From: Chitinophagaceae bacterium
GTDB lineage: Bacteria > Bacteroidota > Bacteroidia > Chitinophagales > Chitinophagaceae
Reading direction: 5' to 3'
Assembly (NCBI GenBank): GCA_025929635.1
Contig: JAICPX010000002.1
Coordinates: forward strand, 1-39,817
Length of the DNA stretch: 39,817 bases
In this document: piece after piece, positions 17,277 to 39,817 of the stretch
Layout of the letters: the number at the start of each line of letters is the position of its first letter
How positions within the stretch are numbered: position 1 is the first letter of the stretch
The notes under the pieces: model-generated
The model's input: only the letters and a program-made list of their open reading frames with translations
The model's database searches: none
What the model was told of the DNA's origin: nothing
Program-made: the position numbers and the translations under genes

Positions 17277-17948
17277 ATGGAGCAGGAAAAAACGTTATCT
17301 GAACAGGAAAGCCTGAGACTGATCACAATAATGATCAATAAGGCAAAAGAATCCTATCATGACACAGGGATTGGTGCCATTATGTGGGGAGCGGTCATTG
17401 CGGTATGTTCCCTGGTCCGGCTGTCAGAAGTGCAATTTGATTACAGGCTTCCGTTTGACATTTACCTGCTGACACTTGTTGCCATTATACCGCAAATATT
17501 CATTTCAATTAAAGAAAAGAGAGAAAGAAAAGTAAAGTCTTATGATGATGCTTATCTTGACTATATCTGGCTGGGCTTTGGCATTACGATTTTTCTCCTT
17601 ATTCATATTAGCAATAATATTTTTGGCGAATGGGGGTCCTGGTCAAATGAATACAGGAGTATCACAGGTAAAGAAGCGCCGATGCGCTTCAGTGAATTCG
17701 TTTCACCACTTTTCCTGATGCTTTATGGTTTGCCGACGTTTATCACCGGCGCAGCATGTAAGTTCAAGCCAATGCTTTGGGGCGGAATTTTTTGCTGGGT
17801 ATGCTGCGTAGTTACAGTATACACGACGATCAAAATAGATCTTTTGTTAACGGCCTTGTCAGCAATAACTGCCTGGTTCATCCCGGGGATATTAATGGAA
17901 GTTGAATATCGTAAATATAAAAAGGAGCAGGCATTATTGAATGTTTAA
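17277..17948 (+). CDS. Integral membrane protein, unknown function
   Basis: 223 aa; LSEQESLRLITIMINKAKESYHDTGIGAIMWGAVI aligns with the previous gene; 3 bp gap. Confidence 0.75.
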   Translation: MEQEKTLSEQESLRLITIMINKAKESYHDTGIGAIMWGAVIAVCSLVRLSEVQFDYRLPFDIYLLTLVAIIPQIFISIKEKRERKVKSYDDAYLDYIWLGFGITIFLLIHISNNIFGEWGSWSNEYRSITGKEAPMRFSEFVSPLFLMLYGLPTFITGAACKFKPMLWGGIFCWVCCVVTVYTTIKIDLLLTALSAITAWFIPGILMEVEYRKYKKEQALLNV

Positions 17949-18231
17949 AGATCTTGATCCCATATTACATTCTCAATTGCGCCTTGCGGTGATGTCAGTT
18001 CTTATCAGTGTAAAAGATGCAGAATTTACTTTTTTAAAGGAAAAAACCAATGCCACTGCCGGTAACCTGAGTGTTCAGATCCAAAAACTGAAAGAAGCAG
18101 GGTATATCGATGTGATAAAACAATTCAAAGACAATTACCCGCAAACAATTTGTAAGATCACTGCAACGGGTATTGGCGCTTTCGAAGAATATGTAAAGAA
18201 CCTGCAGGTTTATCTGACCCAGCCAAAATAA
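17941..18231 (+). CDS. Winged-helix transcriptional regulator (HTH_34/MarR-like)
   Basis: 96 aa; LHSQLRLAVMSVLISVKDAEFTFLKEKTNATAGNLSVQIQKLKEAGYI helix-turn-helix; overlaps the upstream CDS by 8 bp. Confidence 0.85.
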   Translation: MFKDLDPILHSQLRLAVMSVLISVKDAEFTFLKEKTNATAGNLSVQIQKLKEAGYIDVIKQFKDNYPQTICKITATGIGAFEEYVKNLQVYLTQPK

Positions 18232-18285
18232 AAAGGCCCTTTAGACAAAGGGCCCGTCTCCGTTGATACTCTAAGTGTATGAAAA
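18230..18285 (-). terminator. 56-bp duplicated element containing a rho-independent terminator (copy 1)
   Basis: aaaaaggccctttagacaaagggcccgtctccgttgatactctaagtgtatgaaaa; on the minus strand GGCCCTTT-gtct-AAAGGGCC-TTTTT. 55/56 identical to 21125-21180. Confidence 0.85.
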
Positions 18286-18375
18286 GTTATAGGGTTAAAC
18301 TATTCATTTAATCTTAAAGCTGAGTATCGGGAGAACCTGTTCGTTAGTAAATGGTAGCATTTTTATCAAAACCGC

Positions 18376-19992
18376 CTATTGCTTAATGAATTTTTTTGTC
18401 TGGATATCTGCGCCATTGGTTACTTCAATGGTGTACATGCTTGTTTGCATGTTTGCAGCCAATGGAAAACTGATCATATTATCTCCTTTAAAGCTGTTTA
18501 TCCTGTTATGAATGATCACTTTCCCTGTCATATCGTATATTCTTACATCGATCGTTTTATCTGCTCCGGCTGCATAATTAAAGGTTAACTGATCACTTAC
18601 GGGATTGCCAATGATCTTAAGATTATTGCCGGTAGTGGGCTTATTTTGAAAAGTGAGTATCCTTGAATAGCTTATTTCATTTGTTTTGCTGGTGATCCTG
18701 AGACGGTACATCACTTTTTCATAGGCCGGGATAGTCTCATAAAACATATAATCTTCAACTCCCTTACTCTCACTTGTGAATACCAGGGCAACGGTTTTAA
18801 ATTCTTTACCATCGTAGCTTCTTTCTATCTCAAACTGGTTGATCATTTCGTTATTGCCAACTTTCCATTGAAGCCTTGTTCTATTGTTGGCATCAATATT
18901 ACCCTGGAGGCTTATCAGGTTAACAGGTAAAACGGACCAATAGTTACCAATGGCAAGCGTGGTATCATAACAGTCAGAAGCAGACTTTATATCGATTATT
19001 ACGGCCACATCCCACGATGGCAATACAATATATTGCGAACCCGTAGGTGTGCTGGTAAATGTCCTTGAATCAATCAGCACATCATTTATATCAAATTGTA
19101 ATGCGATGCCGGCATCAGAATAAACGTTTACAACAACGGGCAGGGCAGCGGCCGGTGCCGACAGGATATTGTAAGTGAGCAGCGCTTTAGTAGGCTCCAT
19201 CGCATATTGAGAAATGATAGCCGATATTGATAATTGATTTCCGGGAGCAGACGAAAAAGAACCATTTGTTGAACCGGGAGTATGTTGTCCCGGCTGGTCA
19301 CTTTTTAACCATTCACCACACAGCCCATCAAAGCTCCGGTAATAGCCATTATTTGTACCTAAAGAGTTTGGAATAAATTCTATGTCGTTGTCGGGAATTG
19401 TATTAAAATTGATTGTAAAATCAGGAGCGCTGCCACTCATATCAACAGGCAGGTTAGGCATTGACTTTATGGTCCCAGGCAGTGTAGTTGTATTGATCCC
19501 ACCAACAACTCCATTCACCAGTATCCCATTTTTATACACAAAAACATGGTATACTCCGTCGCTGCCACCAACTATTCTTACCATGAAGTCATTAAGGTTT
19601 GCCGGAACTGCAACCTGAGTATAAGAAGCACCATTCCGTTGCCATTTTGAAATCGCGCCGCCGGCAGGAATTGAGTTCCAGCTAAAATCGGCATTTTGAT
19701 TTAACTGTAATTGTATATCAAAGGGATCTTGTGAAGCTCCAGCATAGTACCCATGGGCGGCCATGTTTGCGTTGGGAAGATCGAGAATATAAAAACCAGA
19801 ATTGACACCTTCCTCGTAATACGTTACAATCGTATAATTGTCCAGGTTTTCTACGCTATTGCTCTCATTATAGAGTTCAAAGAATTCATGATAGCCATTA
19901 CCGGGTTGCGGGTAAACTTCATTCAGCACGGCCTGCGATCTCGAAAGAAGTGAAATAGATACGAGTACGCTGATAAGTAGAATTTTCTTCAT
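18376..19992 (-). CDS. T9SS type A sorting-domain protein with N-terminal lamin-tail-like (LTD) domain
   Basis: 538 aa; signal peptide; VLNEVYPQPGNGYHEFFELYN LTD-like start; C-terminal NPVSDQLTFNYAAGADKTIDVRIYDMTGKVI...MYTIEVTNGADIQTKKFIKQ sorting domain. Confidence 0.85.
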   Translation of the reverse strand: MKKILLISVLVSISLLSRSQAVLNEVYPQPGNGYHEFFELYNESNSVENLDNYTIVTYYEEGVNSGFYILDLPNANMAAHGYYAGASQDPFDIQLQLNQNADFSWNSIPAGGAISKWQRNGASYTQVAVPANLNDFMVRIVGGSDGVYHVFVYKNGILVNGVVGGINTTTLPGTIKSMPNLPVDMSGSAPDFTINFNTIPDNDIEFIPNSLGTNNGYYRSFDGLCGEWLKSDQPGQHTPGSTNGSFSSAPGNQLSISAIISQYAMEPTKALLTYNILSAPAAALPVVVNVYSDAGIALQFDINDVLIDSRTFTSTPTGSQYIVLPSWDVAVIIDIKSASDCYDTTLAIGNYWSVLPVNLISLQGNIDANNRTRLQWKVGNNEMINQFEIERSYDGKEFKTVALVFTSESKGVEDYMFYETIPAYEKVMYRLRITSKTNEISYSRILTFQNKPTTGNNLKIIGNPVSDQLTFNYAAGADKTIDVRIYDMTGKVIIHNRINSFKGDNMISFPLAANMQTSMYTIEVTNGADIQTKKFIKQ

Positions 19993-20131
19993 TTTCTTAG
20001 GGTTGAATTAAAACGTTCTTGATTTTTTCTGCTGCTGAATACCGGTGATAACAGAGTTACAAGTTGAGAAGCGATATCAGTACGGATTATTCAGAAGCAG
20101 TTTTACCCGGATACTTGGTTTTTTTTCCACA

Positions 20132-20165
20132 CAAATCTACTATGGCATTCGGTCAAATACAAGCT
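20132..20165 (-). promoter_or_regulatory. Shared-type promoter for the 18376-19992 gene
   Basis: Minus strand AGCTTG (20165-20160), 20-bp spacer, TAGATTTGTGT (box 20139-20132). Confidence 0.7.
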
Positions 20166-20271
20166 TGTTTGAATGAAACTTTACGATGTCGCACATTTAC
20201 TAAAGCAATCTGCCTGCCGGTATTATAGCTCATCTCCGGGATCATAAAAAGGATAGTTTTTACCATGGAGT

Positions 20272-20892
20272 TTATTGTTTTATGAATACCGAGGTGAGTC
20301 GTAGTATTGCGTTATTTATCTCTATTACATAAAATCCGGGCATAAAGCCGGAGTTCAATGGAATTGTTATGAAGTTATTCCCTTTGACACTATTTATTCT
20401 TTGACGGAGTACGGCGCTGCCGCTCAGGTCATAGATCTTCAATTCGGCCTGGTCCGCTTTTTTTGAAGTGTAGTTGAAAGAAAGCCTGTCACTGGCAGGA
20501 TTAGTCATAATGGTGATTTTATAATCTGGGGCGATTTTGTGCTGGAGGATGACGATTCTTGAATAAAATGAATGGTGGTTTTTACTGACAATTCTTAAAC
20601 GATACATTATTTTATCCGGGATATTGATAGAATCGGAATAAGCATAGCTTTCTGTAGCAAATTTGTCAGTGGCATTCAAAACCCCGATCGACTCAAAATC
20701 TTTTCCGTTAATGCATCTTTCAACTTCGAACCTGTTTGCGCCCTTGTTATTGCTAATTGTCCAGGTCAGTCGATTAATAGAATTTTCGCAACTACCGCTA
20801 AAATTGGAAATAAACGCCATATCCAGTTGTCCGTTTATTTTTTGAGCAGCTATTAAAAGGATAAGCAGGCAAAGGGTATAGTATTTTTTCAT
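20272..20892 (-). CDS. Short T9SS sorting-domain protein lacking the LTD passenger domain
   Basis: 206 aa; signal peptide directly followed by the region matching the C-terminal third of the two 538-aa paralogs (LTWTISNNKGANRFEVERCINGKDFESIG...MPGFYVIEINNAILRLTSVFIKQ). Confidence 0.8.
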   Translation of the reverse strand: MKKYYTLCLLILLIAAQKINGQLDMAFISNFSGSCENSINRLTWTISNNKGANRFEVERCINGKDFESIGVLNATDKFATESYAYSDSINIPDKIMYRLRIVSKNHHSFYSRIVILQHKIAPDYKITIMTNPASDRLSFNYTSKKADQAELKIYDLSGSAVLRQRINSVKGNNFITIPLNSGFMPGFYVIEINNAILRLTSVFIKQ

Positions 20893-21035
20893 TTTAACAG
20901 GGTTGAATTAAAATATGTCCTTTAATTTTTTGGAAGCGGAAAATTCGTAATGATAGAGGGATAGTGTTCAGGATAGTATCAGTACGGATTATTCAGCAGC
21001 GGCTTTACGGGGGATATTGTGGCTTTTGTCCGACA

Positions 21036-21069
21036 CAAATCTACTATGCACTTAACATACATGCAAGCT
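21036..21069 (-). promoter_or_regulatory. Shared-type promoter for the 20272-20892 gene
   Basis: Minus strand AGCTTG (21069-21064), 20-bp spacer, TAGATTTGTGTC (box 21043-21036). Confidence 0.7.
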
Positions 21070-21124
21070 AATTTGATATGACTTTTACGATAGCGGGTTT
21101 TTTCATAACGGTGATGATGAATAA

Positions 21125-21180
21125 AAAAAGGCCCTTTAGAAAAAGGGCCCGTCTCCGTTGATACTCTAAGTGTATGAAAA
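21125..21180 (-). terminator. 56-bp duplicated element containing a rho-independent terminator (copy 2)
   Basis: 55/56 identical to 18230-18285; minus strand hairpin GGCCCTTT-ttct-AAAGGGCC followed by T-tract. Confidence 0.85.
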
Positions 21181-21323
21181 TTTTTCAAGGTTTTAACCAG
21201 TCGACAGATTCTTTGAATTAGTACCGGAGACATGTTTTATCGACGAGGATCACTTTTTATTTCTTCCTTTGCTCCCTCAAGTGAAAGGAAGATGGCTTGT
21301 CTAAAGATTTGTTTTTGATTTTG

Positions 21324-21356
21324 AAAAAAAAGCCGAAACACAGTTTTCGGCTTTTC
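21324..21356. terminator. Hairpin terminator downstream of the 21424-23040 gene
   Basis: aaaagccgaaa...ttttcggctttt inverted repeat with A/T tracts on both sides (bidirectional). Confidence 0.75.
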
Positions 21357-21423
21357 ATAATTGGATTCGAATTTTCAAGGATGGGTTTTCAACCTAAGAT
21401 GAAAGATATACGAGCTTGTATCT

Positions 21424-23040
21424 TTATTGTTTTACAAATTTCGCGATCTGGCGGCCATCGGCATTTGCCACTTCCACTACATACAAACCAGGCGTGAAAG
21501 TTGCATTTAATGGCAGGCTTAACAGGTTACTTCCTTCCGCACTGTTTACTTTCTGGCTCATCATTGTTTTACCAGCCAGGTCGTATACTCTGATGTTTAC
21601 TTCCTGCGTGGCGTTTGAATAGAAGCTGAATGTAAGCTTATCTTTTACCGGGTTACCGTAGATCCTGATATCGTTTGTGATCAATGTTTTTGTTTGGAAC
21701 ACAAGAATTCTTGAGTAATCAATATCCTGTCCTTTGTCGATCATTCTTAAACGATACATAACCCTGTCACTTGCTGTTACAGTTTCATAGAACATGTAGT
21801 TCTCGGTGCCCATTTTTTCAGAAGCAAATACCACACCTACCGTTGAAAAATCACGACCATTGGTGCTTCTTTCGATCTCGAAGCTGTGTACTGTTTCATT
21901 ATCGGCTACTGTCCAGTTAAGTGTTACCTTATTATTCTTATTCATATTACCCTGGAACTTTAAAAGGTGCACGGGCAGCGGTGATAATCCGTTAGGTATC
22001 GCGATTACCTGGTCAAAACAACCCGAAGGGCTTTTTACAACGAGCATTACCGGGTCAGTTCTTGATGGAAGGATCACATACTGATCACCCTCATTGGTGG
22101 CATATATTATTCTTGAATCAACCAATACATCATTGGCATCGAGCTGGCCAACAGTCCCAAGGTCGGTATAAACCTGGATGGTGACAGGAAAGGCAGACAA
22201 AGTTGAAGAGGTAATATTATAAGTCAATAATGCTTTCGTATAGTCGCCACCTAATTCGCTGATTGCGTAACTAACAGAAACGCTACCGCTACCGGGTACT
22301 GCTGAGCCGTTTGAAACACCAGGTGTGTGTTGTGGCGCAGAGCTACTTTTGTTCCATACACCGCAAATTCCATCAGCAAGACGAAAATAACCATTGTCGT
22401 TTCCTGTCGCTGAGCCAATATATTCAAATTGGTTATCGCTATAAACACTAAAATCGATATAGAAATCTGTTGATGTTCCACTCATATCCACCCAAAAAGG
22501 AGGCAATGATTTGATATAGGTCGGTATTTTGGCTTGCGACATACCACCGAAAACACCATTTACCAAAACACCATTTTTAAAAACAAATATGTTGTGCTGG
22601 GCATTGTTACCCTGGCGTGGAATAAATATATTATTAAGGTTGGCTGGTAAAGAAACTTCACTATAAATACCTCCATTCCTTTCCCACCTTTTAAGATAAC
22701 CACCGGCCGGAATTGCATCCCAGCTAAAATTGGGAGTTACGTTATTTGAACCCTGGACTGAAAAAGGACTCTCTGAGGCCCCTACATAGAAACCTTTGGA
22801 TGCTACCGTTTGTGTCGGAAGATCCAACACATAAAAACCAGTTTTACCATTGTCCTCGAAATACGTAACAACAGTGTAGTCATCCATACTCTCAGGAGTA
22901 GGACTCGTACTTGTGTTGTAGAATTCAAAGAATTCACTTCTGTTGGCGCCTGGATCTGTATAGACTTCGTTAAATACTACCTGTGCATGTATGATGGCAG
23001 CAGAGAGGATAAGTACAGAAAGAGTAAAAATCTTTTTCAT
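21424..23040 (-). CDS. T9SS type A sorting-domain protein with LTD-like domain (paralog of 18376-19992)
   Basis: 538 aa; VVFNEVYTDPGANRSEFFEFYN; collinear with the other paralog throughout; C-terminal NPVKDKLTFSFYSNATQEVNIRVYDLAGKTM...PGLYVVEVANADGRQIAKFVKQ. Confidence 0.87.
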   Translation of the reverse strand: MKKIFTLSVLILSAAIIHAQVVFNEVYTDPGANRSEFFEFYNTSTSPTPESMDDYTVVTYFEDNGKTGFYVLDLPTQTVASKGFYVGASESPFSVQGSNNVTPNFSWDAIPAGGYLKRWERNGGIYSEVSLPANLNNIFIPRQGNNAQHNIFVFKNGVLVNGVFGGMSQAKIPTYIKSLPPFWVDMSGTSTDFYIDFSVYSDNQFEYIGSATGNDNGYFRLADGICGVWNKSSSAPQHTPGVSNGSAVPGSGSVSVSYAISELGGDYTKALLTYNITSSTLSAFPVTIQVYTDLGTVGQLDANDVLVDSRIIYATNEGDQYVILPSRTDPVMLVVKSPSGCFDQVIAIPNGLSPLPVHLLKFQGNMNKNNKVTLNWTVADNETVHSFEIERSTNGRDFSTVGVVFASEKMGTENYMFYETVTASDRVMYRLRMIDKGQDIDYSRILVFQTKTLITNDIRIYGNPVKDKLTFSFYSNATQEVNIRVYDLAGKTMMSQKVNSAEGSNLLSLPLNATFTPGLYVVEVANADGRQIAKFVKQ

Positions 23041-23184
23041 TTTCTTAGGGTTGAATTGAACGGATCTTGTTTTCGATCTCAGCAGCTACCGTAATGTTAC
23101 CGGGAATTTTTTTTTAGAGCAGGTATCAGTACGGATCGCTTATCGTAATTTTCATTGGATACTGTGATTAAAACTACGATGACA

Positions 23185-23218
23185 CAAACGTAATATGCAC
23201 ATTTAGTTCATGCAAGCT
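23185..23218 (-). promoter_or_regulatory. Shared-type promoter for the 21424-23040 gene
   Basis: Minus strand AGCTTG (23218-23213), 20-bp spacer, TACGTTTGTGTC (box 23192-23185). Confidence 0.7.
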
Positions 23219-23310
23219 TTTCGATAGAAAATTTTTCAGGTATATTTTCAAAATATTCATTTTCAATAAACATTTTTTAAAACTAATTTTGAATTTCGTA
23301 GGAATACTAT

Positions 23311-28873: not shown

Positions 28874-31510
28874 TTAGTGTGATACGGTGAGCTTATTGGT
28901 ATATACTTCCTGGTTTGTGATCAATTCGACCACATATAAACCATTGGTAAAGTTATTTATTGAAATCTGTGTTCTGTTAGCCCCGGTGACTAACACAATA
29001 GGCTTACTCATTAAGACATTACCCGAAAGCGATCTTATCCGTAACGTTGCCATTTGATTTGATGTTGAATTGAAAGAGACTACTACATCATGTTGGGCAG
29101 GGTTAGGATGTACCCTGACATGGTTAATCAGGTTGTCCATCTGGATAATTCGTATACCGCTGTATTTAGACGACCCGGAGCTTTCTATCATACGCAACCT
29201 GTAATAAGATCTTCCGGGAGCGGGTTGTTCATCAACCAGGCTATAATCTGCGGTCTTAACTGATATGTTCACATTTACAGATCCGATCTTTTCCCAGGAA
29301 ACAAGATCCGCACTTCGTTCAATCTCAAACCCACGATCTCCTGGTTCGGCCGAAGCTCTCCAGTTCAGCATCACATTTCCTGATGACGTATAGGTTGCCC
29401 TAAAATCAAGCAAGCGGATTGTAAGCGGCATCGCCTGTGAGATCACAGGGTAGTCTTCCGTTTCGCCATCCGCCAACCAACCGGTGGCGTCACCGGATGT
29501 AAGTGCACCCGAATACAGTCGTACACGAAGAAATGAATTAGGTGTACCGGCAGCAATAGTAATTCCATTCCACGCCAATGATATTGTCTGTGGTGAGGCG
29601 CTACTGGGTACAGTAAGAACGACTCCTTCGGAGGCTTCAAACAGGCCATCCGCATCATAGTCGAGCCAACCAGCCAAATAAGCAGTGACTCCGGTATTAT
29701 TCAGTACTATTACATCCTGCACATGATTATAGGCATTTCCATCTGAAACCATCATGGTTACAGTCCCGATGCCATCCTCTTCATCATCTCCTGACGCGTC
29801 AGCCGAGGTGGATTTGTTCCATTCATCACCCCATGCTGAACCTATTCTTAAAGTTGAATTGTTGCAGGCCTTTTGGTTAGCCGCGGGAGAAAGAGCAACC
29901 GGATCGTATGAAGATGGTGCATCACCAAAATCACATTTTGGTTTGAATGGGTCAGATGCGTCGCCCGCGTCATTCACCCAGGCGGGTGAACAGGAAGACA
30001 CAGTAATAGCGGTGGAAGTTCCGATCGTACCGTCATTATTATAAAGTGCAATATTATTTTTTACCCTGTATAAATTGCCATCATAGGTTGCGCCCAGCTG
30101 TCCTGCTATTTCTGCGTTACCGGTGTAAGTAGTCACGGTGTTGTTTTGCATGGCAACATGAATATAATGATTACTTGAAAGGCTGCCACTTGTTGCATGT
30201 GTAATGATAGTTCCATCTCTTACGATAAAATCTCCCCAATCATGCATTACCGTTCCGGCCCCATCATCACCAGGGGTAGCAAAGGCCTGAACGGCGCGAA
30301 TAGGAGTGCCCGATCCGTCAAAGTCAATCCGCCAGATCACGGATTCGGCATTTGTCCCGTAAAAAACGCCGTCGCTTCCCTCTATACCAAGGTAAAGTGA
30401 TCCATTATAAAAAGCCGCACCGGCAAATTCCACTCCCTGTTCAAAGCAAGGAATTCCGAGAGTTTTTATATCGGCTAATACAGTGGTTATGGTTTCAGTC
30501 TCAAAGTCATATTTTTTTAATATGAAATTTCCCAGCGGGCCGTTCGGAAGTGGTGCATTGTCCATCACATAATACAACCAATGGTTAACCGGATCATATG
30601 CCAATGAGTTCATTTTATTCCCAGTTGTTCCCGGATCGGAGAACAAATAATGCGCCTGTGCTGTGCTTGCATTGACCATATAGACATGCAGGTTTTGCGG
30701 ATTAGCGAGAAAATAGGATGGTTGTCCCGTAAATGGTTGTGTGTAGGCATAATGATAGTTAGTGGGAAAGCCCGGGTTGGCCACACAAGCCGTAATATCG
30801 GACAGGAAGAATTCATCATTGCTTCCCAGTATAGAGTCTTTGATAACAATCGTCTTCAGAGGGCCATCGATTGAAATAGTAACTGCTCCCGTATTTGCTG
30901 TATACCCCGGGTTGTTGTTTGAAGCCGAGAAAGTTCTCCAGTTAGATGAACCTCCTGCGGTCAGGATTGTTGAAGCATATAGGGAATAATTAATTGTTTG
31001 TAATGTACCACTTGCATTGGTGGCATTGATCGTGAAAATAGCGCCACGATCTATATCATTTAATGTGAATGATAAATTCTGAACTTCAGTATCAAAGGTG
31101 AGTGTAATGGTTTGTCCCGCGGTTGTAGGATCAAAATGTATGTCAGCTCCCGTATGTGAACCAGCATCACCTGTATGGGTGGTCCTGTCACCGGAAAGAG
31201 CGGCTGCCGGATACGCTGGAATCGTGGTTGAGGTTGTTAGAAAATTCGTACCGATCGCAAACTTCTGCGTTTGCCACATCGAAGAAGTTACAAAGGCTTG
31301 TCCTGTGACCGGGTTAACAACACCATAATAGCCATTAGCATGCAAATAATCCAGGTTGTCCCAATTAACTGTTGCCGAAGTGTAGCCGGCTCCACATTGT
31401 GCGGAAGAATTTTTTGATACACTTAAATTCAAAACAGTAAATACGAGAAAAGAAAGTTTTGAAAAATTCTTCGATAAAGAGTATACGGATTTGAGTAAAG
31501 TTAATTTCAT
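28874..31510 (-). CDS. Secreted T9SS type A sorting-domain protein with GEVED domain
   Basis: 878 aa; VVLNNTGVTAYLAGWLDYDADGLFEASEGV...GDATGWLADGETEDYPV GEVED pattern; C-terminal VHPNPAQHDVVVSF...NGLYVVELITNQEVYTNKLTVSH. Confidence 0.88.
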   Translation of the reverse strand: MKLTLLKSVYSLSKNFSKLSFLVFTVLNLSVSKNSSAQCGAGYTSATVNWDNLDYLHANGYYGVVNPVTGQAFVTSSMWQTQKFAIGTNFLTTSTTIPAYPAAALSGDRTTHTGDAGSHTGADIHFDPTTAGQTITLTFDTEVQNLSFTLNDIDRGAIFTINATNASGTLQTINYSLYASTILTAGGSSNWRTFSASNNNPGYTANTGAVTISIDGPLKTIVIKDSILGSNDEFFLSDITACVANPGFPTNYHYAYTQPFTGQPSYFLANPQNLHVYMVNASTAQAHYLFSDPGTTGNKMNSLAYDPVNHWLYYVMDNAPLPNGPLGNFILKKYDFETETITTVLADIKTLGIPCFEQGVEFAGAAFYNGSLYLGIEGSDGVFYGTNAESVIWRIDFDGSGTPIRAVQAFATPGDDGAGTVMHDWGDFIVRDGTIITHATSGSLSSNHYIHVAMQNNTVTTYTGNAEIAGQLGATYDGNLYRVKNNIALYNNDGTIGTSTAITVSSCSPAWVNDAGDASDPFKPKCDFGDAPSSYDPVALSPAANQKACNNSTLRIGSAWGDEWNKSTSADASGDDEEDGIGTVTMMVSDGNAYNHVQDVIVLNNTGVTAYLAGWLDYDADGLFEASEGVVLTVPSSASPQTISLAWNGITIAAGTPNSFLRVRLYSGALTSGDATGWLADGETEDYPVISQAMPLTIRLLDFRATYTSSGNVMLNWRASAEPGDRGFEIERSADLVSWEKIGSVNVNISVKTADYSLVDEQPAPGRSYYRLRMIESSGSSKYSGIRIIQMDNLINHVRVHPNPAQHDVVVSFNSTSNQMATLRIRSLSGNVLMSKPIVLVTGANRTQISINNFTNGLYVVELITNQEVYTNKLTVSH

Positions 31511-33992: not shown

Positions 33993-36644
33993 ATGAAACA
34001 CCTTAGCTCTTCCATCGTTTGCTTCATTATTTTCTTAACATTAAATGGTCAAAGCTGCCCTGGGGTTGGCAACATAAGTTACCAGCGCTGGAATGGGATC
34101 AACGGCGCTGCTGTTTCGAATCTGACATCCAATTCAAATTATCCTGATAATCCTTCGTCCACCGGCACAAGGACTTTATTTGAAATGCCCACTAATTTTG
34201 GTAATAATATTGGCGTGAGGATGAATGGCTATTTATGCCCTCCTGCAACGGGAAACTATGTTTTCTGGATAGCCAGTGATGCAAGCGGAGAATTGTGGTT
34301 AAGCACAACCACTAGCCCTGCCAATAAAATAAGGATTGCCTTTAATACGAATCCTACAAAATATAGAGAGTGGAATAAATACAGTACACAAAAATCTGCT
34401 CCTGTCAGCCTGACAGCCGGGCAGGTTTATTATGTTGAGGCATTGATGAAAGAAAGCAATGGGAATGATAACTTATCTGTGGGATGGGCAAAACCCGGTC
34501 AATCAACATCCGCACCAGGCGAAGTAGTGCCCGGTACAAGTTTAATGACCCAACTTCCCGATACGCAATCTCCTGCCCCTCCAACTAATCTTGCCGCTTC
34601 AAATATCACCATGACTTCATTTACGTTGTCATGGGCGGCATCAACCGATAATGTTGGTGTCACAGGTTACGACGTGTATCAAAACGGCGTGAAAATAAAT
34701 CCATCAAATATAACGGTCTCTTCCTATGATGTTACAGGCCTGGCGGCCGGAGTGACTTATAATTATTTCGTCGTGGCAAAGGATGCAGCAGGAAATGTTT
34801 CGTCAAATAGCAGCACCCTGGATGTAACAACACTTGAGCCAGATATAATACCTCCTGCATCTCCAACTAATTTATTATCATCCATAATTACGTTGACAAG
34901 TTTCAGACTTAATTGGGCTGCATCAACTGATAATGTTGGAGTAACTGGTTATGATGTATACCGTGACGGAATAAAGATAAATGGACCATTAGTTACAAAT
35001 ACATTTTTTGATGTTACAGGATTAGCTTCAGGTCTTTTATATTCAATGACAGTAATAGCAAGAGATGCAGCGGGAAATTCGAGCCCGGCTAGTTTGCCTC
35101 TGGAGGTGACGACCCTATTAAATATCGGCGGGAATGAAACATTTACAATGAGGACGATTATTGCGAATCAGCGAATGCCGCATGATCTCGTGTATGGTCC
35201 GGATGGAAACGTTTGGTATACCGAACGATTCGCCGGGACAGTAAGCTTTGTAAATCCAATTACTTCAGTCAAAAGGGTTGTTCTTACCCTTGGGTCAGCA
35301 ATGGTAAGAACAGGAGGACAAGACGGCCTAATGGGACTTGCCTTGCATCCGCAGTTCCTGCTTGGTTCACCATATGTGTATATATCTTATACGTATGAAT
35401 CAACCAGTAGTACAATGCGAAAAACAAGGATCCAACGCTATACTTATGATTTTTTAACGCAGACTCTTGGTTCACCCGTCACTGTTCTGGAAAATATACC
35501 AGGGAGTAATGACCATAATTCTGCCCGTATTGCTATAGGACCAGATCTGAAATTGTACTATTCAGTCGGAGATATGGGTGCGGGCCAATTCGATAATATT
35601 AGCCGGCCTAACAATTCACAGAACGCAAATATTTATGAAGGAAAGATATTACGTCTGAATACAGAGCCGGATGCTTCCGGTTCATGGATACCGACAGATA
35701 ATCCTTTTGGTAACGCAGTGTATTCTTTGGGGCATCGTAATCCGCAGGGATTGGTTTGGGGAAATGTTAACGGCACAAATATTTTATACAGTGATGAACA
35801 CGGACCATTCAGTGATGATGAGATCAATATTATTGAAGGAGGCCGCAATTTTGGATGGCCAAATGTCATTGGTTGGTGTGATGGCAATTATAATGGACGA
35901 ACAACAGGTGGCTTTACAATTGTAAATGAACTTAATAATTGCAATTCATTAAATGCAAAAGAACCTTTGCGTTCTTTGTTTCCGGTGTCGAATCCCCCAT
36001 CGGGTGGTGATAATATGTTATGGCCTTCGGTGGGTCCGTCGGGATCTGACTTTTATGGAAATATAACTATCCCAGGCTGGAATAATTCATTATTAGTAGC
36101 CAATCTAAAAAAGGGAACGGTTTCACGATATAAACTGAGTAATGACGGCCAAAGTATTATTTCAGACACCATTCATTATTTCCGTGGCTTGGGCAGGTTC
36201 AGAGATGTTATTGTTTCACCGGATGGATTAAAGATATATGTAGCATGTGATAGCAGCGGCTCTACATCCGGACCCACTGGTGGCGTAACCACTACACCTG
36301 CAAATCCCGGCAGCATTCTTGAATTTACCTACCAGATCCTTGGCGGTGCCAGGGCAGCGGACCAATTGTTGACAGAAGTGAAGATCCAGGAGGATAAAAA
36401 AGATCTAAGCATTGATGTTTATCCGAATCCGGCTATCGACCATTTTGTGGTTTACAACCATAAGCTTACTAATAGTCAGATATTATTATATGATATCGGT
36501 GGCAAACAATTAAGAAATATAAAGACCAGCAACCTGGCGACCAAAATAGATGTAAGCAACCTGGCCAATGGAATATATATATTAACTGTAAAAGGGTTTG
36601 ATGGAAAAACTATAAGAACGGAAAAGATTATTGTTACGAAATAA
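33993..36644 (+). CDS. Secreted PA14-FN3-FN3-glucose/sorbosone dehydrogenase-like protein with T9SS sorting domain
   Basis: 883 aa; PA14 region (YQRWNGINGAAVSNL...GNYVFWIASDASGELWLS), two FN3 repeats, PQQ-type sugar dehydrogenase propeller (MPHDLVYGPDGNVWYTER...LGHRNPQGLVWG...YSDEHGPFSDDEINIIEGGRNFGWP), C-terminal sorting domain. Confidence 0.9.
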   Translation: MKHLSSSIVCFIIFLTLNGQSCPGVGNISYQRWNGINGAAVSNLTSNSNYPDNPSSTGTRTLFEMPTNFGNNIGVRMNGYLCPPATGNYVFWIASDASGELWLSTTTSPANKIRIAFNTNPTKYREWNKYSTQKSAPVSLTAGQVYYVEALMKESNGNDNLSVGWAKPGQSTSAPGEVVPGTSLMTQLPDTQSPAPPTNLAASNITMTSFTLSWAASTDNVGVTGYDVYQNGVKINPSNITVSSYDVTGLAAGVTYNYFVVAKDAAGNVSSNSSTLDVTTLEPDIIPPASPTNLLSSIITLTSFRLNWAASTDNVGVTGYDVYRDGIKINGPLVTNTFFDVTGLASGLLYSMTVIARDAAGNSSPASLPLEVTTLLNIGGNETFTMRTIIANQRMPHDLVYGPDGNVWYTERFAGTVSFVNPITSVKRVVLTLGSAMVRTGGQDGLMGLALHPQFLLGSPYVYISYTYESTSSTMRKTRIQRYTYDFLTQTLGSPVTVLENIPGSNDHNSARIAIGPDLKLYYSVGDMGAGQFDNISRPNNSQNANIYEGKILRLNTEPDASGSWIPTDNPFGNAVYSLGHRNPQGLVWGNVNGTNILYSDEHGPFSDDEINIIEGGRNFGWPNVIGWCDGNYNGRTTGGFTIVNELNNCNSLNAKEPLRSLFPVSNPPSGGDNMLWPSVGPSGSDFYGNITIPGWNNSLLVANLKKGTVSRYKLSNDGQSIISDTIHYFRGLGRFRDVIVSPDGLKIYVACDSSGSTSGPTGGVTTTPANPGSILEFTYQILGGARAADQLLTEVKIQEDKKDLSIDVYPNPAIDHFVVYNHKLTNSQILLYDIGGKQLRNIKTSNLATKIDVSNLANGIYILTVKGFDGKTIRTEKIIVTK
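34575..35115 (+). repeat. Tandem FN3 domain repeat inside the 33993-36644 CDS
   Basis: PTNLAASNITMTSFTLSWAASTDNVGVTGYDVYQNGVKIN and PTNLLSSIITLTSFRLNWAASTDNVGVTGYDVYRDGIKIN. Confidence 0.9.
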
Positions 36645-38863: not shown

Positions 38864-39817
38864 TTACAATTTCTGCATTTTTACTTTTTGATCATTACCT
38901 GCACCCGTTACATTTAAGTAATACGTGCCTGCAGGTAATCTACTCATATTGATGATAAAGGTATTGGGACCCTCTGATACCTGCTCGGAACCTTTCAGTA
39001 ATATTCTGCCAACATTATCAATCAATTTCCATTGAATATTTCCTTGCTCCGGTGAAGCGACCATGATTTTCACTTCATTAATTACAGGGTTTGGAGAGAC
39101 GGTGATGTTACCTGTAGTGAATGGTAATGTAACTGCAACAATATTTGAATACTTGTAGGTGCCGTCTATGTCTACCAGTCTCAATCTATAAAACAGCTTT
39201 TGTGAAGATTGGTTGATCGCATCATTATCAGTAAATGCATAGTTGAATGATCCCTGCGTGTTGTTGCGGCCGTTAGCGGTTACATTCCCGAGCGGTGCAA
39301 AACGCGATCCATCGACGCTTCTTTCAATTACAAAATGGGAAGTATTGATCTCGTTCTCTGTTTTCCAGTTCAATAAAACCGTATTGTTGTTTTGCAACTG
39401 GCCTGTAAATGAAAGCAGGTCTAACGGCAATGTAAAGCTGTTGCTTGCAAAATAGAATGAGGAGAAACTTGTAATATCGCCCTGCAACACATAGCCATTG
39501 GCGCCATGCGACTCGGCAAAAGTTGGAGCAATAGCTGTCGTAGTTTCATTGGCTGTACTGCTGCAAGGATCCTGGTTTTTCAATATCAAAAGGTTGCTGA
39601 TGCTAAATACGCCACTGCCTGCATCAGCGATCAGGGCATCAAGCTCAGCTTTTGAAATATAGAGCCTGATCTTCACGGTTGATGAGGGCTGATTTTGGGG
39701 TGTAATTGTAATATTCCGATCAAGATAATGCGTGCTGCCAGCTATGCGAATGGCGCCCGAGTTCTTATAAAATGATGAGGTGACGGTACCCAGGTTATTT
39801 CCATTTGCATAGATCTC
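38864..39817 (-). CDS. T9SS type A sorting-domain protein, C-terminal part (5' end beyond window)
   Basis: The frame stays open from 39676 (a GTG in the ORF track) to the window edge (EIYANGNNLGTVTSSFYKNSGAIRIAGSTHYLDRNITITPQNQPSSTVKIRLYIS). C-terminus VSPNPVINEVKIMV...LPAGTYYLNVTGAGNDQKVKMQKL. Confidence 0.85.
   Translation of the reverse strand, partial: EIYANGNNLGTVTSSFYKNSGAIRIAGSTHYLDRNITITPQNQPSSTVKIRLYISKAELDALIADAGSGVFSISNLLILKNQDPCSSTANETTTAIAPTFAESHGANGYVLQGDITSFSSFYFASNSFTLPLDLLSFTGQLQNNNTVLLNWKTENEINTSHFVIERSVDGSRFAPLGNVTANGRNNTQGSFNYAFTDNDAINQSSQKLFYRLRLVDIDGTYKYSNIVAVTLPFTTGNITVSPNPVINEVKIMVASPEQGNIQWKLIDNVGRILLKGSEQVSEGPNTFIINMSRLPAGTYYLNVTGAGNDQKVKMQKL

Follow-up and report, generated by a model that had tools for sequence, protein, structure and literature searches.

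A candidate 5' leader RNA family preceding tandem T9SS sorting-domain genes in Chitinophagaceae

INTRODUCTION

Do neighboring surface-protein genes of a Chitinophagaceae bacterium share no more than a promoter, or does the sequence between promoter and start codon carry a control element of its own? The question is raised by a 39,817-nt stretch of DNA (contig JAICPX010000002.1, positions 1 to 39,817; here called the window), in which three minus-strand genes each stand behind the same promoter and a long leader. A first-pass annotation had suggested coordinated, perhaps RNA-level, control of a surface-protein family. The genome is a fragmented assembly (4.84 Mb, 705 contigs, 91.7% complete).

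RESULTS

Three sorting-domain genes with a common promoter

The genes of the array were defined by sequence and domain searches.

18376-19992, minus strand: T9SS sorting-domain protein with a lamin-tail-like domain, 538 aa
20272-20892, minus strand: T9SS sorting-domain protein, 206 aa
21424-23040, minus strand: T9SS sorting-domain protein with a lamin-tail-like domain, 538 aa, 47% identical to the product of 18376-19992

The T9SS type A sorting domain (TIGR04183) matched all three genes (E values of 2e-9, 1.4e-8, and 1e-11). Identity among the three proteins was 38 to 47%, and the 206-aa protein aligned with the C-terminal part of both 538-aa proteins at 38 to 39% identity. A gene for an HTH_34 winged-helix regulator (17941-18231; HTH_34 E value of 1.2e-28) adjoins the array in convergent orientation; it is a conserved neighbor in the relatives annotated through that stretch (L063, L064, L068, and L072).

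The promoter AGCTTG-N20-TAnnTTTGTGT had been reported upstream of all three genes, and a pattern search returned exactly these three sites, with 0 expected from shuffled sequence and no further site in the whole 4.84-Mb genome.

20129-20165, minus strand: promoter of the gene starting at 19992
21033-21069, minus strand: promoter of the gene starting at 20892
23182-23218, minus strand: promoter of the gene starting at 23040

The first-pass coordinates identified the right sites but ended 3 nt short, at TTTG. Bacteroidota promoters have the consensus -33 TTTG/-7 TAnnTTTG (PMC6847099; see also PMC7366714). Here, the -7 box TAnnTTTG was exact in 3/3 promoters and of the same type in most relatives, the exceptions being distant ones. 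The -33 position held CTTG(CA) at a constant spacing, so that TTG is shared with TTTG and the first base is C. The assignment to the -33/-7 type, known from promoters of the Bacteroidota primary sigma factor (PMC6847099), is thus supported by the -7 element, which matches perfectly, and in part by an upstream box that contains TTG at a fixed spacing. The array promoters differ from those of the primary sigma factor in having a CTTGCA/AGCTTG-like upstream element instead of plain TTTG, and in that conservation runs on into the leader.

Layout of the leaders

With start sites inferred from the promoters, the predicted leaders of the three genes are about 134 to 139 nt long.

19993-20126, minus strand: leader of the gene starting at 19992 (fold z score, -2.40)
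20893-21030, minus strand: leader of the gene starting at 20892 (fold z score, -0.67)
23041-23179, minus strand: leader of the gene starting at 23040 (fold z score, -2.07)

Since the 5' UTR has a median length of 24 nt in F. psychrophilum and of 32 nt in B. thetaiotaomicron (PMC9723704), a leader of 130 nt or more is long for the phylum. Two common boxes had been described within a leader of about 130 to 145 nt, and both were found in 3/3 copies.

20075-20087, minus strand: box ATCCGTACTGATA, leader 19992, in the 5' arm of a hairpin (see below)
20977-20989, minus strand: box ATCCGTACTGATA, leader 20892
23124-23136, minus strand: box ATCCGTACTGATA, leader 23040
19999-20009, minus strand: AATTCAACCCT, ending exactly 6 nt before the ATG of the gene starting at 19992
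20899-20909, minus strand: AATTCAACCCT, ending exactly 6 nt before the ATG of the gene starting at 20892
23047-23057, minus strand: AATTCAACCCT, ending exactly 6 nt before the ATG of the gene starting at 23040

When the three upstream regions were aligned, the spacing varied little, with 41/43/45 nt separating TTTGTGT from the box and 82/84/83 nt separating the box from the ATG, notwithstanding the diverged sequence between promoter, box, and start. The starts are A rich, with A at -3 in 3/3 and at -6 in 2/3 (AAGAAAATG; the 20892 copy has GTTAAAATG). This resembles the Kozak-like translation starts of Bacteroidota, A at -3/-6 being favored in F. johnsoniae (PMC6847099), whereas the adjacent AACCCT box is an addition that is specific to the array genes in this genome.

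The motifs are confined to the array in their own genome

It had been suggested that the signature might be common to a wider family of surface or T9SS proteins. A search for promoter and box gave no convincing extra copy of any motif in the 4.8 Mb. The 13-nt box ATCCGTACTGATA did not occur in the genome outside the array, and the start context TCAACCCTnnGAAAATGAA was found with 0 or 1 mismatch only at these three starts, four other matches requiring 2 mismatches. Three further sorting-domain genes in the window (28874-31510, 33993-36644, and 38864-39676) had no leader match. Because the motifs occur only in the array, they mark a tandem array and not a genome-wide T9SS regulon, and the latter was rejected. 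Two additional matches to a leader profile (R2, see below) on contig C685 (E values of 6e-4 and 0.003) were put down to chance; an unrelated 739-aa open reading frame (ORF) follows one of them, a promoter-like site, and the other has no recognizable promoter.

The leader is conserved in at least 11 genera

Two profiles were used for searches in other genomes: R1, a covariance model of 7 same-genus leaders, and R2, a sequence profile of 17 leaders. Each search drew 299 to 399 genomes of the family and scored a limited number of candidates in each, and some groupings of leaders were made by eye. The leader preceded homologous genes in three genomes of the same genus (G001, G002, and G003); in two small ones (G004 and G005), it was not found by R2. 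R1 detected it in further genera with E values down to 6.5e-9. At an E value of <1e-8, R2 found it in 18 genomes from 11 genera, including five genera that had contributed no training sequence. Weaker R2 matches (up to an E value of 0.01, in 108 of 399 genomes) include chance promoter matches and were left uncounted. Among 249 genomes of the order, all matches at an E value of ≤1e-4 lay inside the same family. The pattern GAAAACCACAT-N7..10-GNAAAANTAC, taken from more distant members, occurred at 45 places in 84,980 named genomes. At 31 of them, a CTTGCA/TTTG promoter stood just upstream, and all 31 carried the label Chitinophagaceae, Chitinophagales, or a broader one compatible with these; the remaining 14, scattered over various groups and lacking this promoter, were taken as chance. 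The leader-bearing genera were assigned to Chitinophagaceae from named records, and the leader is apparently specific to this family.

The locus is syntenic in the annotated relatives, lying between atpA and pdxA (atp operon, TonB receptor, ABC transporter, pdxA). The leader is found on the side of atpA, the TonB receptor, and small membrane proteins, towards pdxA, and it is divergent from a block of ABC ATPase, permease, and outer-membrane-lipoprotein-like genes, as in the window. In the window's own genus, two or three T9SS genes are found here in tandem, and every one of them has a leader to itself. For most of the other genera, the leader precedes a gene that encodes a secreted protein of 125 to 151 aa; three such proteins were scanned and gave no Pfam match to a T9SS sorting domain. 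Downstream of the gene in loci of what we call class A (L120, L122, L123, L145, L150, and L176), we observed a small basic ORF of about 45 to 55 aa ending in ...LQPxRxxK..., which, judged from its sequence, appears to come second in the leader operon.

The leader was better conserved than the protein that follows it: its first 60 nt were 73 to 100% identical, against 38 to 89% for the proteins (14 pairs). One genus, g42, carries besides the normal copy a second leader, conserved from the promoter through the ATG in three genomes (L065:3658-3876, L067:3662-3884, and L070:4614-4828). This orphan leader is followed by ORFs of about 24 to 32 aa and then by an unrelated 91-aa gene, with no secreted-protein gene. 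These data bear on whether tandem duplication might explain everything, with the promoter and translation start conserved and the rest being functionless leftover similarity. The restriction of the motifs to the array within the genome would fit such an origin, as would the duplication of the terminator region along with the genes (see below). However, the leader is conserved in at least 11 genera, and more strongly than the coding sequence, which largely refutes it, and in g42 the leader was retained after the gene had been replaced, so that we regard duplication alone as highly improbable. The absence of copies elsewhere thus holds true inside the genome but fails across genera, and the similarity is not merely that of a recent duplication.

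A related leader, class B (GAATCGAACAATCCCTAAGAAAACAACGTAATCCGACC; about 130 to 190 nt), precedes another T9SS gene next to atpA. Copies were seen in L120 (10764-10978 and 13216-13430), L121 to L125, L066, L073, L114, and L179. Attenuation through a leader peptide could be imagined from short upstream ORFs: the 23040 leader contains ATG-MKITISDPY-stop, ending inside the box, and 8 of the 11 class B copies have a short ORF starting with MK (mostly MKQT). However, the other two leaders of the window have no such ORF, save a GTG at the very 5' end, and no terminator hairpin stands ahead of the array genes. The upstream ORF, not being common to the three leaders, was dropped, and we give attenuation almost no credence.

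The arms of a predicted hairpin coevolve among close relatives

The leaders of the window were folded, with the following predictions.

20029-20100, minus strand: predicted hairpin, leader 19992
20936-20997, minus strand: predicted hairpin, leader 20892 (weak)
23084-23140, minus strand: predicted hairpin, leader 23040, with a further stem at 23143-23179

The pairing of CTGCTTCTGAATA with TATTCAGCAGCAG proposed for the 19992 leader is real, with 12 of 13 positions paired within the minimum-energy fold (z score, -2.40). In eight leaders of the genus and in nearer genera, the box paired with a downstream arm, which in most of them was AUCAUUACGG or closely similar to it. The lower stem changed its sequence yet stayed paired (GAUUAG/CUAAUC, GAUCAGC/GCUGGUC, GAUAAG/CUUAUC, and CUGCUUCUGAAUA/UAUUCAGCAGCAG). 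In an arm-swap permutation test, a leader's own arms were more complementary than swapped ones (P = 0.0004 for the lower stem in 10 diverse sequences; P = 5e-5 for both stems), although both P values err somewhat on the optimistic side, because the hairpins had already been seen when the group of 15 and its ten representatives were picked. Most hairpins of the close group also folded better than with a shuffled downstream part. The covariation reported by RNAalifold was slight on 7 or 11 sequences. Covariation is thus supported in the genus and its near relatives, through coevolution of the arms.

For 19 distant class A leaders, the arm-swap test gave P = 0.38, with little power since the 5' arm hardly varies. 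Fold energy gave no significant structure in the class A leaders, and RNAalifold found in them just an isolated 3-bp hairpin without covariation. A class A pairing of CCACA with UGUGG was dropped; its 3' variants UAUGG and UUUGG are not compensated on the 5' side.

The conserved single-stranded motifs could also be read as DNA, and the boxes might be transcription factor sites located downstream of the promoter. In favor of this, 10/12 positions of the box ATCCGTACTGAT form a near palindrome, the distance between box and promoter is nearly fixed, and the HTH_34 gene (17941-18231) lies next to the array. Outside the genus, however, just the GTAC core keeps dyad symmetry, with mostly 0 to 2 of 8 flanking positions matching and 6 in one distant copy. 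Moreover, strong conservation spans about 60 nt at once, and an operator would not need the coevolving arms of a longer hairpin. Because the box loses its dyad symmetry beyond close relatives, we consider an operator unlikely.

A conserved element in the 3' UTR

Two of the three array genes end with a common element, delimited by sequence comparison and folding.

18225-18288, minus strand: 3' UTR element CATACACTTAGAGTATCAACGGAGAC plus terminator, gene 18376-19992
21120-21183, minus strand: 3' UTR element CATACACTTAGAGTATCAACGGAGAC plus terminator, gene 21424-23040

Within the genus, the element is nearly invariant, and the terminator stem shows a compensatory change from CCCUU/AAGGG to CCCUA/UAGGG. 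Almost every class A locus that was read has a related element after the gene. In the form CATACACTTAGAGTATCAACGGAGA plus terminator, it was seen in the window, in L063 and L064, and after class A genes in L120 to L130. Throughout the family it was conserved at this locus, and no copy was found elsewhere in the genomes searched. An exact match to the 15-nt core was present in just 3 of 150 genomes of the family, always at the same locus.

UTR-derived small RNAs exist in Bacteroides (PMC7366714), which lends support to the idea that the 5' leader, the 3' UTR element, or both might yield a small RNA acting in trans, or that the transcript ends pair. The 3' element is as conserved as the leader and limited to the same transcripts; its sequence UUAGAGUAUCAACGGA can pair with UCCGU(ac)UGAUAC(nnn)CUCUAA of the leader, which would compete with the leader hairpin, and for most of eight leaders the box is where the best duplex forms. 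However, the duplex energies were no better than those with shuffled leaders (z scores of +0.1 to -1.3), and the complementarity is lost in other genera though the 3' element persists. The duplex, plausible by eye, was accordingly rejected, and we hold this explanation to be quite unlikely. Very unlikely is a control from both ends of transcripts that carry the two elements, each better conserved than the protein, in which the 3' element, acting in cis or released as a small RNA, would pair with the leader box against the hairpin and so link the expression of the tandem surface-protein genes.

No match to known RNA families

Rfam 15 covariance models, including Flavo-1, gave no match at the gathering score in the window or its relatives, and only chance matches at a relaxed threshold; a described RNA family was thus rejected. 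Flavo-1 of the Flavobacteriaceae is likewise an RNA motif that was inferred by computation and belongs to a single Bacteroidota family, and it is reported to coincide with 5' transcribed regions (PMC9723704). Unlike it, the present element occurs in Chitinophagaceae, is tied to one locus, and has no Rfam match. Riboswitches and ribosomal-protein leader RNAs are also long, structured, conserved 5' leaders with one type of gene behind them, whereas here no expression platform (terminator or sequestered start) is evident and Rfam gives no match. Our literature searches, with most subscription journals and preprints outside their coverage, found no such leader described in Chitinophagaceae.

DISCUSSION

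We think it likely, judging from sequence comparison, that the three regions are tandem copies of a new family of cis-acting 5' leader RNAs that tune the translation or stability of surface-protein mRNAs. Sequence conservation, position, synteny, hairpin arms that coevolve among close relatives, and retention of the leader despite a changed downstream gene support this reading; transcription, the RNA-level mechanism, action in cis, the step of translation or stability, and the existence of a binding partner are what it infers. An RNA-level element acting in cis is favored because the leader is long, is conserved above the protein, and has coevolving arms. The RNA-level function suggested by the first-pass annotation thus gains support from leaders in many genera, coevolving arms, and a leader that appears to outlast its coding sequence.

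Each leader copy would be transcribed from its own Bacteroidota-type promoter. It would open with a conserved 5' segment, whose consensus in relatives is GAUUCGGAAAACCACAU-n8-CGUAAAACUACGAU-AA-AUCCGUACC. In the genus and nearer relatives, a predicted imperfect hairpin whose 5' arm includes the box AUCCGUACUGAUA would come next, and the A-rich translation start AACCCUAAGAAAAUG would close the leader. Acting in cis, the leader may be bound by a protein or by another RNA, or it may be a structure that switches. Either way, it would tune the translation or stability of the surface-protein message.

Bacteroidota lack Shine-Dalgarno sequences, and few post-transcriptional regulators are known in them. 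A family-wide leader RNA, better conserved than the protein it precedes and linked to a locus for surface proteins, would offer a handle on RNA-level control in this phylum. The leader also flags an unstudied operon, comprising a secreted protein, what appears to be a second gene for a small basic protein, and a conserved 3' UTR.
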